64,000 bases of DNA from the NCBI RefSeq assembly GCF_009068765.1, contig NZ_CP035534.1, positions 1,922,001 through 1,986,000 of the forward strand, in the 5' to 3' direction. A program made the translations under genes and the position numbers. Positions 11,722-19,010 of this stretch are shown in pieces. The notes under the pieces were generated by a model. That model did no database searches, had not been told where the DNA came from, and was given only the letters and a program-made list of their open reading frames with translations. The number at the start of each line of letters is the position of its first letter. The first letter of the stretch is position 1. The DNA is from Sulfurimonas hydrogeniphila (GTDB lineage: Bacteria > Campylobacterota > Campylobacteria > Campylobacterales > Sulfurimonadaceae).

Positions 11722-13296
11722 ATGAAGAAACCTCTACTGCTTTCTTTAGCAACTATTGCTATTTTAGGAACAACAAATGTAAATGCCGAATCAATGTATG
11801 ACAGATTTCAAGCAATGGAACTTGAAATGAAAAAGATGAAAAAAGAGCTTGATGCCCTTAAAGCAAAAGAACAGGCATCTATGATGCAAGAAGAAGATGC
11901 TGATGAGGAAGAATCGGCTGATGATACCGAGGCAACAGCTTCATCAGATGAAGAAGATGACGAAGATGATGATGAAATGACGGTAGAAGAGCAGCTCGCA
12001 GAGATTCAGGATTCCATTTCTAATCTCAACAGAAACACCAACGGAAATCACATAAAATTCAATGTTGATTACAGATTTGCCGTTGACAATCTTCAGTACA
12101 AAATGGCAGACGGCAGCACACAAAAGAACAATGCTTTTATGACAAACAGACTCTGGTTAAATATGAACTGGGCGGCTACAAAACACCTGAGTTTTACAGG
12201 GCAACTTGCATACAACAAAGCATTCGGTGCCAGAAGCGGTGCTTCCAATCCTGCAAATGCCTCTTTTGAAACATTTGACTGGATAGCCAATGAAAATGCC
12301 TATAACGATACCTTAAGAGTACGTTCTGCATACTTTTTCTACAAAAACGACACCTTTATGGGCAGTGATATTCCCTGGACATTCAGTGTAGGACGCCGTC
12401 CTTCAACAAACGGACATCTTGTCAACCTGAGAGATGATGACCATGCAGCTTCTCCGATGGGGCATACAATCAATGTTGAGTTTGACGGATTAAGCTCTAA
12501 GTTTAATTTAGAAAATGTAACCGGTATTGACGGGATGTATGTCAAATTCTGTGCCGGCCGCGGCATGAGCAATGCAGCACCGAGGTTTAATACAGCCCCT
12601 TATGCAGATACAACTTCAAATGCATCTATAGACCTGGTTGGACTGATCTTTACTCCTTGGAGCGACGGACAGTATTCTGTGAATTCCCAGTACTATTATG
12701 CAGGAAACCTGATTGATGTTGTCAATCCCGCAAACCAGACACAAGGTTTTCAGACTGTCGGCAACATACACTCATTTACAGCCAACTTTGTAGCAAACGG
12801 TATAGGAGACGGAATCAATGACTTTTTAGACGATACACTCTTTTTTGTCAGTGGCGCTGTAAGTATTACAGACCCGGACAAAGGACAGAGCATGCTTGGC
12901 AGCGCGGTTGATGAAAGTGTGAAAGGGTATTCTTACTGGATTGGACTGCAGGTACCTTCACTTGTGACAGAAGAAGGAAGATGGGGAATCGAATTTAATC
13001 ACGGTTCAAAATACTGGAGAAGTATTACCTACGGTGAAGATACGAACATCGGTTCAAAACTCGCAGCTCGCGGAAATGCATACGAGGCATACTTTACAGA
13101 ACCTTTGATAGAAGATATTTTATCTTTTCAGATTCGCTATACATATATAGACTATAAATATGCCGGAAGCAACGGCTTCTTCGGAAGCACTTCAGGAAAT
13201 GCAATGAGCATTGACCAGGCAATTGCAGCCGGTTTAGGTTCCCAGGTCGTAGATACAGCCCAGGATATCCGTTTCTATCTCAGATACAGATACTAG
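11722..13296 (+). CDS. DUF3373-type outer-membrane porin-like protein
   Basis: The 524-residue protein starts at ATG 11722, preceded by AAAGGGATGA. It has a signal peptide (LLLSLATIAILGTTNVNAES), a coiled coil (residues about 24-46, MYDRFQAMELEMKKMKKELD), a very acidic linker (about 52-90, runs of Asp and Glu), and a C-terminal domain of alternating aromatic strands ending in FYLRYRY, an outer-membrane beta-barrel signature. The body resembles the DUF3373 proteins common in Campylobacterota, whose substrate is unknown. It is monocistronic and converges on the GGDEF-EAL gene with a 4-nt overlap. Confidence 0.8.
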   Translation: MKKPLLLSLATIAILGTTNVNAESMYDRFQAMELEMKKMKKELDALKAKEQASMMQEEDADEEESADDTEATASSDEEDDEDDDEMTVEEQLAEIQDSISNLNRNTNGNHIKFNVDYRFAVDNLQYKMADGSTQKNNAFMTNRLWLNMNWAATKHLSFTGQLAYNKAFGARSGASNPANASFETFDWIANENAYNDTLRVRSAYFFYKNDTFMGSDIPWTFSVGRRPSTNGHLVNLRDDDHAASPMGHTINVEFDGLSSKFNLENVTGIDGMYVKFCAGRGMSNAAPRFNTAPYADTTSNASIDLVGLIFTPWSDGQYSVNSQYYYAGNLIDVVNPANQTQGFQTVGNIHSFTANFVANGIGDGINDFLDDTLFFVSGAVSITDPDKGQSMLGSAVDESVKGYSYWIGLQVPSLVTEEGRWGIEFNHGSKYWRSITYGEDTNIGSKLAARGNAYEAYFTEPLIEDILSFQIRYTYIDYKYAGSNGFFGSTSGNAMSIDQAIAAGLGSQVVDTAQDIRFYLRYRY

Positions 13297-15230
13297 TTTT
13301 TGGGTATCTCTTTATCTGGCTCAGCCAGATAAAAACCCTGTACCCGTTCAATATCAAGCGATTTTACTATTTCAAACACCGCTTGATTATGAACGAACTC
13401 CGCTACAATCACCAGGTTTAATTTCTTGGCAAAATCTACAATTGTTTCAACTACTATGTGTGCATTGTTATCTGTTTCAAGATTTTTGATAAGACTGCCG
13501 TCAATTTTAATGTAATCAACATCAAGCTTGAGCATATGCTCAAAATTGGAATACCCCGCACCAAAATCATCTATAGAAATTTTACAGCCCAATGTTTTCA
13601 TCTTGCGTATAAAAACTGAAACCTCTTCATAATTTTCAATCCCTTCCGTCTCAAGAATCTCAAAAACTATTTTTTTGCTGACACCGTATTTTTTAACGGT
13701 TTTTTGAATATACTGCACCATCTCTGCATCAAGTATATCATCAATAGAAAGATTGACCGAAAACGATGTGTCTCTGTGCTCAAAATACTGACAGCTTTTA
13801 CTCAGCATAATCTTTGTTAACTGCGGATAGAGTTTACTTTTTTGGGCAATATCTAAAAACCTGTAAGGACTGACAACTGAGCCGTCTGTCTCTATCAGGC
13901 GAATAAGGCATTCATAACTCACCGCTTTTTTCGTTCGGGTATCAAAAATAGGCTGGAAAAAAGGCATTATTCTCTCTTCTTTTATGGCAGCTTTCAGTTT
14001 TTTCACCCACTCCATATTTTCTTGATATTTTCTCTCTATTTCAAGTTTTTCATCATACAGCAGAAAATACTTTTTCTGCTCTTTGGCAACTTTAAGGGCA
14101 ATATCTGCTTTTTCCAACATCTCATTGGGCTGCAATGTTCCACCCATTGTCACACGGATATAAATCTCGTTTTCTTCATAATGAAATACCATCTGTTCAA
14201 TCTCTTTTGACAGACTGTTGACAATTCGCATAAAAGTCCTGTGAGAAGGCCTTGCTCTAAAGCACAGAGCAAATTCATCTCCTGAGAGTCGTGTGACACT
14301 GATGTTTTGCTCCTCTTCAACAAAAGCCTGCAGTTTTTTTGCAAATTCTCTGAGGACATAATCCCCTGCAATCTGTCCGTAGAAATCATTTATCTCTTTA
14401 AAATCATCTATATTTAAAATCAGCAATGCCCCGTCATTATTCAAATTTTCTATATTGTAAAAAAGTTTTTTTCTGTTGGGCAACTGTGTCAGATCATCTA
14501 TAAAAAGCTGTCTTTTCAACTCTACTGTTTTCTTCTCGACTTCTCTTGCCAGATAGGCGTTGATATCTTTTTGTTTTCTTGCATAGTCAAATACTTTCTC
14601 CTGCATCTCATTTAATGCAGAGACTATAAGCGCGATCTCATTATTCTCTTGCATCGGTTCTATCTTTAATTTTTTCTCCGGTGTAAAACCTTTTAATATA
14701 TTGGCAATTTTTCGCAAAGGCTTAAGCAAATTATCTATATAGGCACCAAGAAATATAAATATCAGGAAAAGAATCACAAGCATTTTGAGAAGCAAATGTG
14801 TATACTGTTGTATAAGCTGTTCATAATTGTGATTTGAGTAGCTTAAAACAATTGTTCCTATTTTCTTCCTGGAATTTGGCTGAAGAATATCCCATTTGAT
14901 GGTAAAAAGACTCTGATAATTGTTTTTAGATCTTGTTTCATAAATCAACCTGTCCTTTTCAAAAACCTTCACAGAGAGAATTTCTTTATTTTGCATTAAC
15001 TGCTTCAGTTTCACATCGATTTGGTTTTTTAGTCCCAGATACATATCTACCGCTATCAAAGGTTCTATTGTTTTTAAGATGAGGGTTGCTTTTTGAAATT
15101 CCATATTGTAAAAGGCATGTTTGTTTATTTTTTCAAATGCAAAAAAAATCCCCCCAATTGTAATAAATGAGGTGATTACGATGGAGCTCATAATCCTGAA
15201 TGAGAGCGATTTGAATTTTTTTTCTTTCAT
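13293..15230 (-). CDS. Membrane GGDEF-EAL cyclic-di-GMP signalling protein with HAMP
   Basis: The 645-residue protein has TM helices at about 14-33 and 146-165, enclosing a periplasmic domain of about 110 residues, then a HAMP-like linker (PLRKIANIL onward), a GGDEF domain with SGDEF at 316-320, and an EAL domain with ECL at 440-442. The EAL domain keeps NLS, DDFGAGYSNF, DYIKIDG and QGFYLAEP, so phosphodiesterase residues look largely present. SGDEF is a variant that can still be active. It is the last gene of the acyltransferase, TonB-receptor and YfiR-like operon, so the periplasmic domain probably receives that signal. The layout parallels YfiN, with an added EAL domain. Confidence 0.9.
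   Translation of the reverse strand: MKEKKFKSLSFRIMSSIVITSFITIGGIFFAFEKINKHAFYNMEFQKATLILKTIEPLIAVDMYLGLKNQIDVKLKQLMQNKEILSVKVFEKDRLIYETRSKNNYQSLFTIKWDILQPNSRKKIGTIVLSYSNHNYEQLIQQYTHLLLKMLVILFLIFIFLGAYIDNLLKPLRKIANILKGFTPEKKLKIEPMQENNEIALIVSALNEMQEKVFDYARKQKDINAYLAREVEKKTVELKRQLFIDDLTQLPNRKKLFYNIENLNNDGALLILNIDDFKEINDFYGQIAGDYVLREFAKKLQAFVEEEQNISVTRLSGDEFALCFRARPSHRTFMRIVNSLSKEIEQMVFHYEENEIYIRVTMGGTLQPNEMLEKADIALKVAKEQKKYFLLYDEKLEIERKYQENMEWVKKLKAAIKEERIMPFFQPIFDTRTKKAVSYECLIRLIETDGSVVSPYRFLDIAQKSKLYPQLTKIMLSKSCQYFEHRDTSFSVNLSIDDILDAEMVQYIQKTVKKYGVSKKIVFEILETEGIENYEEVSVFIRKMKTLGCKISIDDFGAGYSNFEHMLKLDVDYIKIDGSLIKNLETDNNAHIVVETIVDFAKKLNLVIVAEFVHNQAVFEIVKSLDIERVQGFYLAEPDKEIPKN
13314..13330. terminator. 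Perfect hairpin in the overlap of two convergent genes
   Basis: ATCTGGC-TCA-GCCAGAT is a perfect seven-pair stem located 18 bases past the DUF3373 stop and inside the final codons of the GGDEF-EAL gene. It lacks a T-tract on the plus strand, so its role as a terminator is only suggested by position. Confidence 0.35.
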
Positions 15231-15274
15231 GCAGCAAGCCTGTTTTTTGCATATATTTTAGCATAAATGTTATG

Positions 15275-15820
15275 TCAAAAACTATCTTTGTCCAAAAACT
15301 TTACCATTTGATATAAAAAAGAGACAAAATCAACATCATCTCTCAGGTTCTCTTTATTAAGATAAATCATGGTTGATTTTTCTATCAGCAAGGAGAGCAG
15401 CAGTCCCTCTTTTAGATTTTCTATATCATACGAAAAGGTGATGATTCCTTTTTCCCTGGCAATTTTTGCAACTCTGGCAATATTCTCCTTGGAAGATTTC
15501 AGAACATAAAATGCGGACGCAGGTGTTTTCATATCAAGATGTGCGAAATCAACTATCTTCACTTCATAAGGGTATTTATCAAAATGCCCTTTAAATTTAT
15601 TTTCTATATACTGCTTTACATGTAGGGCTGTATCATAATCACTTTCATCACACACAATGGTATATACAAGTCTGTTTTTTATAAGTTTTTTTTCTATTTT
15701 TTTATCAAGTAACATGATTTTTGGAAAAATTGATGCCTGTGCTTTGAGTAACAACTCATCATAACTGTATCCAAAAAGCAGAGGAACAAACAAGAAATGT
15801 AAAAGTAATAAACGCATCAT
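15275..15820 (-). CDS. YfiR-like periplasmic protein (DUF4154 type)
   Basis: The 181-residue product has a signal peptide (LLLLHFLFVPLLFGYS) and then a mixed alpha/beta body with FYVLKSSKENIARV, IITFSYDIEN and a C-terminal block STMIYLNKENLR plus an aromatic helix. This pattern of late beta-strand, YLNxxxLR and terminal helix is what I recognise in YfiR/DUF4154 proteins, periplasmic repressors of membrane diguanylate cyclases. The assignment rests on pattern and on context: the next gene, 44 nt downstream, is a membrane GGDEF-EAL protein, and the previous gene (0 nt gap) is a TonB receptor. Confidence 0.65.
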   Translation of the reverse strand: MMRLLLLHFLFVPLLFGYSYDELLLKAQASIFPKIMLLDKKIEKKLIKNRLVYTIVCDESDYDTALHVKQYIENKFKGHFDKYPYEVKIVDFAHLDMKTPASAFYVLKSSKENIARVAKIAREKGIITFSYDIENLKEGLLLSLLIEKSTMIYLNKENLRDDVDFVSFLYQMVKFLDKDSF

Positions 15821-17866
15821 CTAAAACCTCTTTTTAAAGGTAAGTAAAAATGTTCTGCGTTCCTGCGCATAATCATTTACATAGGTATTTGGTGAAGAGG
15901 GGTATCGCACATCTGTATCAAAAAGGTTTTTCACACTGACATTCAATGTATAGCCATACTGAATATTTTTATAATTCACTGCAGTATCGAGTGTCATATA
16001 GCCCTTTAGCTTTGGACGCAGATCTGTCTCCACCCTCTCTTTTGAACTGACATACTTTGCTGTTGCACTCAAAGCCAAAGCAGGATTTATATTATAAATA
16101 TAAAATCCTTTTACCAGATGATGGGATACATTCGGCAGGTTATTACTGTCGCTGCTGCCATCCATCCTGTAGCTGCCATCTGTGTAGGTATAATTTGCAT
16201 ATACTTTGTCATTAGGCAGGATATGCCCCCTGAACTCAAGTTCTATTCCGTAAATATCTGTCTTGGCACTGTTTTTATACACAGGATCCGTAACAGAATT
16301 GTATATCTGATCTTTGTTGGCAAGATAAAAAAGATTCGCCTGCAAATAGGCATCATTGGAAAAATTTCTGATGTATGCCAGTTCATACGATGTTACTTTC
16401 TCCGGCTTTAAATCTGTACTGCCTACTCTTGCACTGTTGTTTTTTGTAAACATCTCCTGCCAAGAGGGATTTCTGTGGGAGTTACTGTATATGGCTTTAA
16501 ATATGTTTTTGAAATCTTTATGATACACAAAAGAAATTCTTGGTTCAAACCCTGCATCTTCATAAGAAGTCTGTTCATAATTTATACCGTATAAGATGCT
16601 TAGCTTAGCATTAACATTGTATTCATCCCCCAAAAAGAACGTATAAACATCCCGTGAAGCATCTTTATCAAAAAACGGCCGTGTCAGCGTATAATCTACC
16701 AAAGTTGCATCACCCGTAGCAAGATTGGAGAGTTTCGAACTCATCTGGATCGTTCTCTCCTGTCTTGCTTTGTAGCCTATTGTAATGGTATGTTTTGCAA
16801 CTCCGCTGTATTTCACATACGTCGACTGATACAAAACTCTCTGCTTTGCATAATGCTCTCCGTAAATACCATCAGGAAATACTACACTGCCTAAAACCAA
16901 ATTATCAGGTGCCAGTTTTGCTTTTGAATCGAAAGCATCGTATTTTACTCCTGCTTTTATGTCCAGTTTAAAAGAGTGTATCTTTTTCATATATCCCAGT
17001 TCAGCATAGTAACTCGGCAGTCTCATTCTGTCACTCTCTTGAGGCAGGGCAAGGTTGATCCCGTAGGCGCTTCCCTGTTTATGTTGCAGCATACGGGCTT
17101 TGAGTCGAAAGTCTTTGTACCTTACATCCAGTCCGAGAGAATATTCATCAAGCCACAGGGGAGCCTCACCGGACTGGGACAAAGCTATGTTTGCCGGACC
17201 TAACGCACCTTGAGAGAGTCCGTCCGGACCGGAAGATATATTTTTATTGTCTTTTTGGTAATAAAAATCTATATGTGTCTTAAACTCTTTGCTTTTAAAG
17301 TTTTTTACAAAACCGCCCATTGTGTAATCATACGACCCGTATTTAAATACAACTTTGTCATTTGATTCAAATTCTTCAAAATCTTCTGCATAAGTAACAA
17401 CATTAATAGATCCGGCATAGGCATTAATCCCGTCTACTTTACTCCCTGGTCCTCTGATAACCTCTATGCGTTTTATCATCTCTATCGGCATGGAAAGATA
17501 CTCGGAATAAGAATCAAAGAAAAGATTGTTTACTAAAACACCGTCTATAAGCAGTTTGGACTGTCCATAGGCAAAAGGGTTGGAACCTCTGAAAATCGGT
17601 GTCTGGTTATTGAAATTATCAGTAGCCATATCTACACCCGGAACAAGCAACAATGCCTCTTTAAGTGTCGACACACCCAACTTTTCCAACTCTTTTGCTT
17701 CAAAGACAGAGATAATATAGGGTTGGTAATGTTCATTTTGTTTTGTTTGTGTAGCAATTTCATTAAACTGCTTCATATCTGTCATAATGGAAGAGAGCAA
17801 ATCTTCTGCCTGCAGTTGCAGTACTGCCAGACAGACAAGTAAATAAAGTCGTATGCTGCGCTTCAC
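15821..17866 (-). CDS. TonB-dependent outer-membrane receptor
   Basis: The 681-residue protein starts at GTG 17866, which overlaps the upstream stop as GTGA and has a GGGGG stretch 7-8 bases before it; an ATG at 17881 is the alternative. The signal peptide is RLYLLVCLAVLQLQAED. The plug domain contains PYIISVFEAKELEKLG, LLLVPGVDMATD and MIKRIEVIRGPGSKVDG. The barrel ends LLTFKKRF with a terminal Phe. The ligand is unknown; it resembles the siderophore, colicin I and vitamin B12 receptor group. Tight coupling to an N-acyltransferase gene and to c-di-GMP genes suggests signal sensing rather than simple uptake, which is inference. Confidence 0.88.
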   Translation of the reverse strand: MKRSIRLYLLVCLAVLQLQAEDLLSSIMTDMKQFNEIATQTKQNEHYQPYIISVFEAKELEKLGVSTLKEALLLVPGVDMATDNFNNQTPIFRGSNPFAYGQSKLLIDGVLVNNLFFDSYSEYLSMPIEMIKRIEVIRGPGSKVDGINAYAGSINVVTYAEDFEEFESNDKVVFKYGSYDYTMGGFVKNFKSKEFKTHIDFYYQKDNKNISSGPDGLSQGALGPANIALSQSGEAPLWLDEYSLGLDVRYKDFRLKARMLQHKQGSAYGINLALPQESDRMRLPSYYAELGYMKKIHSFKLDIKAGVKYDAFDSKAKLAPDNLVLGSVVFPDGIYGEHYAKQRVLYQSTYVKYSGVAKHTITIGYKARQERTIQMSSKLSNLATGDATLVDYTLTRPFFDKDASRDVYTFFLGDEYNVNAKLSILYGINYEQTSYEDAGFEPRISFVYHKDFKNIFKAIYSNSHRNPSWQEMFTKNNSARVGSTDLKPEKVTSYELAYIRNFSNDAYLQANLFYLANKDQIYNSVTDPVYKNSAKTDIYGIELEFRGHILPNDKVYANYTYTDGSYRMDGSSDSNNLPNVSHHLVKGFYIYNINPALALSATAKYVSSKERVETDLRPKLKGYMTLDTAVNYKNIQYGYTLNVSVKNLFDTDVRYPSSPNTYVNDYAQERRTFLLTFKKRF

Positions 17867-18453
17867 TCCATTGTCCCCCATAATTTTACTAATTCGGGAT
17901 TTACACACCCAAGTTCTTTCGTATATAAAATACAAGGATAACGCCATCCAAAATCTTGATGCTGCTGAAGCTTTCCTACCGGTTTATATGGCATTTTGTA
18001 TATTTTCAACAGCCGTAAAAAGTTTTTTTCAAGATTTCCATATGTATATTCTATTCCCTCTTCTAGCATTTTACCATACATATAATGTTTTACCGCTTCT
18101 ATAATAACTTTTGTCGTCTTCATACTTCTGTATTTTTTATCAACAAAGATTCGTGACATCTCGCCAAGTTTGTTTTTTTCAAACATACTGTTGTCAAACC
18201 TTGCACTGTTTTGTGTCGGATATCCAATGGGAGAATTATAAATCAGGCGTACTGTTGCACAGACATTCTCTTCTTCATCCAATGCTGCAAAATGTACCGA
18301 ATATGCGTCATATTTGTCATACTCTTTTTCATCTTTAAGAGCATTTTTTTCCAGATATTCCGGATATATTTCCCTCAGTATTTTATACCTAAAAGCAAAA
18401 ACTTTGTCCAGGGTTTTTTTATCGCTTACCTCTAAAAATGTAAAATTCATCAT
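17863..18453 (-). CDS. LuxI/FeeM-like N-acyltransferase (autoinducer-synthase superfamily)
   Basis: The 196-residue protein carries the polar residues of acyl-homoserine lactone synthases in order: R22 in FAFRYKIL, the acidic stretch with D46 and D49 (EYDKYDAYS), R69 in ATVRLI, and E98/R101 in GEMSRIFVD. These match the LuxI positions R24, D45, D48, R69, E100 and R103. The same fold occurs in FeeM-type N-acyl amino acid synthases and in exosortase-associated acyltransferases, so the product may be an acyl-amino acid rather than a homoserine lactone. No LuxR is nearby. It is the first gene of the four-gene operon and overlaps the receptor gene. Confidence 0.7.
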   Translation of the reverse strand: MMNFTFLEVSDKKTLDKVFAFRYKILREIYPEYLEKNALKDEKEYDKYDAYSVHFAALDEEENVCATVRLIYNSPIGYPTQNSARFDNSMFEKNKLGEMSRIFVDKKYRSMKTTKVIIEAVKHYMYGKMLEEGIEYTYGNLEKNFLRLLKIYKMPYKPVGKLQQHQDFGWRYPCILYTKELGCVNPELVKLWGTME

Positions 18454-18462
18454 CTTCCGGTT

Positions 18463-18933
18463 TTATGACTGCTGCAGTTCTTTGAGTTTTTCTTTGACAG
18501 CTTCTACATGTCCTTTGACACGCACTTTTTCCCATTTCGCACGCACAATGCCCTCAGGGTCTATAATGAATGTGGAACGGACAATGCCCATATACTCTTT
18601 GCCATAGTTTTTCTTCAACTGCCACACACCGTACTTCTGCATCATCTCGGTACTTTCATCACTCAAAAGCGTAATGCCTAAATTGTGTTTTTCTATGAAG
18701 TTCCTGTGCTTTTTCGTACTGTCTGCACTCACCCCAAGAATCACCGCATCCAATGATGAAAAATCCGGAGCAGCCTCCGTAAACTCACAGGCTTCTGTTG
18801 TACATCCCGGGGTATTGTCTCTCGGGTAAAAATACAACACTATCCATTTTCCTTTTAAATCCCGCAGACACATCTCAACATCATCCTGATTCGGCAGGCA
18901 AAAATCCGGTGCCTTCTCTCCAACTTCTATCAT
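18463..18933 (-). CDS. bcp: Thioredoxin-dependent thiol peroxidase (Bcp/PrxQ)
   Basis: The 156-residue protein starts at ATG 18933 after a strong GGAGG. It reduces hydroperoxides with electrons from thioredoxin. PRDNTPGCTTEACEF contains the peroxidatic Cys and, five residues later, the resolving Cys that marks the PrxQ type. APDFCLPNQ opens the thioredoxin fold and VRSTFIIDPEG is the usual strand region. It lies 9 nt upstream of the acyltransferase gene on the same strand and could be cotranscribed. Confidence 0.93.
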   Translation of the reverse strand: MIEVGEKAPDFCLPNQDDVEMCLRDLKGKWIVLYFYPRDNTPGCTTEACEFTEAAPDFSSLDAVILGVSADSTKKHRNFIEKHNLGITLLSDESTEMMQKYGVWQLKKNYGKEYMGIVRSTFIIDPEGIVRAKWEKVRVKGHVEAVKEKLKELQQS

Positions 18934-18971
18934 TTTCTTTCCTCCTAAAAATAAATTTAACATGCAAACTT

Positions 18972-19010
18972 CAAAGCCACTCTCAGCCCGCACTAAAGTA
19001 CGGGTTCCAG
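18972..19010 (+). repeat. Dispersed hairpin repeat, copy 1 (short form)
   Basis: CCCGCACT-A-AAGTACGGG is a near-perfect hairpin with arms CCCG/CGGG, preceded by AAGCCACTCTCAG and followed by TTCC. It is in the gap upstream of bcp with copies 2 and 3. Confidence 0.8.

Follow-up and report, generated by a model that had tools for sequence, protein, structure and literature searches.

The Yfi system of Pseudomonas aeruginosa (YfiBNR, TpbB) places a YfiR-fold periplasmic protein beside a c-di-GMP protein of TM-periplasm-TM layout and has an outer-membrane partner (PMC3375315). The Yfi core is modular; most of the distant operons are without YfiB and some have GGDEF-EAL outputs (PMC3375315). On the enzyme side, FeeM-type enzymes make N-acyltyrosine surfactants (PMC4897644) and belong with the N-acyl amino acid synthases Nas343 and Nas354 (PMC4897644) and that of the stieleriacine cluster (PMC7293339). 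N-acyltyrosine synthases from a biofilm metagenome were found fused to a PilZ c-di-GMP domain, and the authors proposed a role in signalling (PMC4897644). Two further groups are close to the enzyme described here, namely the LuxI/LasI synthases and the PEP-CTERM/exosortase-associated acyltransferases of model TIGR03694.

The locus presented here lies in a 64,000-nucleotide stretch (the window) of the complete, 2.34-Mb, single-contig genome of Sulfurimonas hydrogeniphila, which was also the genome used in all whole-genome searches below. The closest named matches at the locus were MAG contigs labelled Campylobacterales and Sulfurimonas. The features are as follows.

17863..18453, minus strand: acyltransferase of the LuxI/FeeM superfamily, 196 aa (PF13444 over cut-off, fold, profile)
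15821..17947, minus strand: TonB-dependent outer-membrane receptor, 708-aa ORF (PF07715 and PF00593)
15275..15820, minus strand: YfiR-like periplasmic protein, 181 aa (AlphaFold model and fold match)
13293..15230, minus strand: YfiN-like inner-membrane GGDEF-EAL protein, 645 aa (Pfam GGDEF and EAL)
14070..14501, minus strand: GGDEF domain of the GGDEF-EAL protein, signature SGDEF (Pfam and alignment)
13317..14000, minus strand: EAL domain of the GGDEF-EAL protein, catalytic residues invariant (Pfam and alignment)

The initial annotation had described four tightly packed leftward genes, and the four ORFs were found where it placed them, all on the minus strand. The receptor and YfiR-like genes are separated by 0 nt and the YfiR-like and GGDEF-EAL genes by 44 nt. 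As called, the receptor ORF overlaps the acyltransferase gene; the true start is probably either a GTG at 17866, which would give a 4-nt overlap (GTGA) with the acyltransferase stop, or an ATG at 17881, immediately ahead of the signal peptide. A bcp-like peroxiredoxin gene which was absent from the initial annotation (18463-18993, same strand) ends 9 nt upstream of the acyltransferase gene, so the transcript may begin further up. A promoter scan at the operon gave a score no better than that of shuffled sequence.

Only one Pfam family, PF13444, matched the acyltransferase above its cut-off (40.8 bits). The FeeM model PF21926 fell 2.4 bits short (24.6 bits, cut-off 27) and Autoind_synth PF00765 was also below threshold (23.3 bits, cut-off 24). 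The best NCBIfam match was TIGR03694, matched by all 29 relatives; the window enzyme scored 67.3 bits against this model's cut-off of 111.95. At an E value of 0.1, Autoind_synth was matched by 27 and FeeM by 21 of the 29 relatives, and an unlinked relative, L134, exceeded the Autoind_synth cut-off (40.6 bits) and scored 30.1 bits with FeeM. When a profile of the 29 relatives was compared with the PDB the top matches were LasI (9e-6), RpaI, TofI and BjaI, all AHL synthases. The AlphaFold model (pLDDT 93) gave VIA Z scores of 17.6-18.9 with LasI, TofI, FeeM, RpaI and BjaI, with LasI best at 18.9 and FeeM (2g0b) at 17.9, while plain GNATs reached at most 16.3. An ordinary GNAT identity is ruled out by the lower rank of plain GNATs in both fold comparisons, and the LuxI/FeeM-like character first proposed for the gene was thus upheld by both profile searches and structure prediction.

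LuxI-type synthases carry the catalytic polar residues R24, D45, D48, R68/70, E97/101 and R100/104, and this set is present in the acyltransferase when aligned through LasI. All 29 homologues share R22, E44, D46, D49, E98, S100 and R101, and 28 of them have R69, which confirms the ordered series (R22, D46/D49, R69, E98, R101) read earlier from the single sequence. The enzyme likewise has the fold, the polar residues and the catalytic Glu (E98) of FeeM and the N-acyl amino acid synthases. The gene is under purifying selection (dN/dS ~0.1). It differs from LuxI and LasI at what we take to be the conserved aromatic positions of LuxI, Phe28, Trp34 and Phe84, where the family has L/V/A, F/L/Y and M/L, respectively. 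The acyltransferase is thus a member of the LuxI/FeeM superfamily that fits no single signal-synthase family in full.

Searches of the whole genome returned no match to the LuxR-type autoinducer-binding domain PF03472, so that the reported absence of a LuxR holds genome-wide and a LuxR partner encoded elsewhere is ruled out. Nor was there any match to exosortase PF09721 in the genome, which rules out a PEP-CTERM/exosortase partner role of the kind associated with TIGR03694.

The second gene product had been called an outer-membrane TonB receptor, and this was confirmed by plug (PF07715, 61 bits) and barrel (PF00593, 118.9 bits) domains, both well over cut-off. The window's YfiR-like protein is, in contrast to the Pseudomonas protein, too distant in sequence for Pfam: it gave no usable match, PF13689 included, and 6 of 32 relatives matched PF13689 (best 1.9e-4). 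Its resemblance to YfiR holds by fold; in comparisons of the AlphaFold model (pLDDT 92) with the PDB, YfiR chains were the top matches (Foldseek E ~1e-6; VIA Z 14.1, rmsd 3.1, 143 aligned). For the last protein, annotated as TM-periplasm-TM-HAMP-GGDEF-EAL, a membrane GGDEF-EAL protein (GGDEF 84.9 bits, EAL 211.6 bits) with an intact EAL site was borne out, but the HAMP domain scored below cut-off (12.3 bits). The NCBIfam DgcN/YfiN model covered residues 13-378 with 108 bits, under its cut-off. The EAL catalytic residues E440, N493, E524, D554, D555, K575, E611 and Q631 are invariant in 23 homologues. The GGDEF signature drifts, being SGDEF in the window and SADEY or SADEF in some relatives. 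A fair guess from these residues is that the protein is an active phosphodiesterase whose GGDEF domain is perhaps regulatory, although it is possible that the protein is bifunctional. As the EAL half looks active, the output of the operon may be c-di-GMP breakdown. The cassette thus departs from YfiBNR in having a TonB receptor as its outer-membrane member with no YfiB lipoprotein in the operon, an output with an intact EAL domain, and a signal-synthase-like gene.

To establish how widely the arrangement is kept we surveyed 200 genomes of the order and 397 genomes of the phylum Campylobacterota. The acyltransferase was found in 30 of the 200 genomes, and the order acyltransferase-receptor-YfiR-like-GGDEF-EAL is kept in three families (f1, f4 and f18) with differing surroundings. 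In the phylum sample the acyltransferase, counted at 100 bits or more, occurred in 31 genomes and the related triad of the other three genes in 33; 29 genomes have both (Fisher p 2e-37, without correction for relatedness). By coordinates, the acyltransferase and YfiR-like genes lie ~2.6 kb apart in 25 of the 31 genomes. Among the remaining six, the contig ends past the receptor in two and at the acyltransferase in one, and the gene is unlinked in three (G234, G417 and G003); in G234 and G417 the synthase and triad are both present at separate loci. Five fetched genomes, all from one genus, have the GGDEF-EAL gene flipped yet adjacent. In G126 and G385 the acyltransferase has decayed (remnants L090:8060-8306 and L139:7752-8086) next to an intact receptor-YfiR-GGDEF-EAL set. 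Synthase and receptor distances were correlated (r 0.86), as expected from shared inheritance. The gene set is therefore real and conserved: the survey of neighbourhoods rules out a chance neighbourhood, and the four-gene linkage first noted in one genome extends across families.

An occurrence in G044 (f10) was discounted because the contig is a 3.7-kb MAG fragment whose flanking bcp gene is ~84% identical to that of the window, and it is probably misbinned. A search of plasmids gave no matches and that of one Nostoc genome weak matches only. The G044 contig (L091:1-3702) is 92-98% identical to window positions 18700-15100 over most of the synthase and the initial two thirds of the receptor, and past that stretch identity falls to about 66-80%. 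This mosaic could reflect recombination moving synthase and receptor jointly, or a chimera of metagenome assembly, and we treat it as a lead. Family f4 also contains a separate clade of related acyltransferases unlinked to the triad (L083, L084, L085, L088, L089), one of which, in L084, adjoins a RecD2-like helicase gene.

Synthase-free triads of TonB receptor, YfiR and GGDEF(-EAL) genes are widespread across Campylobacterota (L153-L172); in 19 of the 20 fetched loci a receptor is no more than a few genes away from the YfiR-like gene. In a receptor tree, built with a quick method version, every linked synthase fell within one subclade of 46 receptors (support 100), which also takes in the broken and unlinked cases and a few that are free of a synthase; no synthase adjoins the receptors of YfiR-GGDEF triads that fall outside it. 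Genome G181 carries, besides the full cassette, a second receptor of this subclade, accompanied by a YfiR-like gene and by another, different GGDEF gene (L153:6060-8693). Since synthase-free triads are common in the phylum, most such receptors would sense something else, and the novelty lies in the attachment of a synthase to one subclade. The earlier view that such triads are known elsewhere and that the synthase link is new therefore stands as regards the synthase, but has to be amended in that triads are common in the same phylum.

Evidence on the product of the acyltransferase came from the unlinked copies. In G234 and G417, which belong to different families, the acyltransferases are sisters (70% identical) and come right after a gene of the leucine-carboxyl-methyltransferase family. 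A homologue of this methyltransferase (49% identical) precedes a FeeM gene in G004; the encoded protein scores 85.1 bits with the FeeM model, over the cut-off, and also carries a cyclic-nucleotide-binding domain. In all, a PF04072/TIGR00027 carboxyl methyltransferase was seen just before an acyltransferase at L133:8755-10283, L134:7957-9424 and L178:5920-7750, in three genomes of three families. Because the unlinked copies follow a methyltransferase whose homologue precedes a true FeeM gene, we infer an N-acyl amino acid as the probable product, likelier than an AHL; carboxyl methylation would suit the free carboxylate of such a compound better than a lactone. The missing LuxI Trp and Phe residues likewise make an AHL synthase improbable.

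The best explanation of the cassette, to which we give about an even chance, is that it encodes a self-made acyl signal that is sensed at the outer membrane and sets c-di-GMP. It draws on the gene order, fold classes, catalytic residues, conserved linkage and co-occurrence, and on the absence of LuxR and exosortase. With acyl-ACP or acyl-CoA as donor, the acyltransferase would attach a fatty acyl group to an amino compound (an amino acid most likely), and the amphiphilic product would presumably leave the cell. The TonB-dependent receptor would bind this putative ligand at the outer membrane, and its periplasmic plug or N-terminus would alter the availability of the YfiR-like protein, which would in turn act on the GGDEF-EAL protein by releasing or repressing its YfiN-like periplasmic domain. 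Through its apparently active EAL half, and with GGDEF serving as regulator or cyclase, that protein would then set local c-di-GMP, perhaps by breakdown, and this would govern surface life versus motility. The circuit first outlined for these genes, from acylated compound through receptor and YfiR-like relay to c-di-GMP, retains its synthase-like fold, profile and residues, its YfiR fold and its four-gene linkage; as to the signal, an N-acyl amino acid is favoured over an AHL. No constantly linked exporter was found among the neighbourhoods surveyed. An AcrB-type RND pump gene, a possible exporter, lies directly upstream of the synthase in f4 only (L068:9384-12494).

Simple import, whether of the compound or of some unrelated ligand, is another possible role for the receptor. 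A rather unlikely but more specific form of this reading is uptake of an acyl siderophore or surfactant, in which an acylated metal chelator or biosurfactant, made or completed by the enzyme, is retrieved through the receptor, and the YfiR and GGDEF-EAL proteins report nutrient status and not density. The receptor is a full TonB-dependent transporter with siderophore, heme and B12 receptors as its best NCBIfam models (all under cut-off), synthase-free triads are common, and N-acyltyrosine surfactants are among the known products of FeeM-type enzymes (PMC4897644); however, no other siderophore biosynthesis gene or metal transporter was seen constantly linked, and neighbours vary between families.

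Genuine AHL quorum sensing through a receptor other than LuxR, in which a divergent LuxI makes an acyl-homoserine lactone, is decidedly unlikely. The AHL synthases at the head of the profile matches and relatives such as L134 above the Autoind_synth cut-off speak for it, but the window enzyme is itself below that cut-off, the LuxI aromatic positions are not conserved and the carboxyl methyltransferase pairing suggests a free carboxylate. We consider it very unlikely that the enzyme makes an aminolipid or alters an envelope component, with the c-di-GMP genes answering envelope state: OlsB ornithine acyltransferase models did match 12 of 29 members weakly, but they were outscored by TIGR03694 and the AHL synthase models, the operon has no second lipid acyltransferase and the genome no exosortase. 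Caulobacter HmrABCX was considered as a related lead and dismissed as unrelated.

Returning to the self-made acyl signal, the conserved cassette suggests a chemical self-sensing circuit without any LuxR regulator. A broader proposal, which we hold tentatively and at somewhat less than even probability, is that of a novel class of signalling between cells, where the acyl (probably N-acyl amino acid) signal of a LuxI-fold enzyme acts through a dedicated TonB-dependent receptor at the outer membrane and YfiR on c-di-GMP, without LuxR, with receiver-only strains and perhaps with synthase-receptor pairs that move together. Neither this four-gene combination nor a receptor for N-acyl amino acids was found described in searches of full-text literature outside most subscription journals.

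A role in signalling has been proposed for the products of N-acyl amino acid synthases, enzymes that resemble AHL synthases (PMC4897644). In Nas343 and Nas354 a PilZ domain provides the tie to c-di-GMP (PMC4897644), whereas the acyltransferase of the cassette lacks PilZ and is accompanied by an outer-membrane receptor and a protein of c-di-GMP turnover. The cassette thereby supplies a candidate receptor, and because this receptor and a c-di-GMP readout occur in a single operon the signalling idea is directly testable. The carriers belong to several families of sulfur-oxidising Campylobacter relatives. If the reading is true, Campylobacterota would gain a self-made acyl signal, and the Yfi module would be seen rewired to a chemical input.
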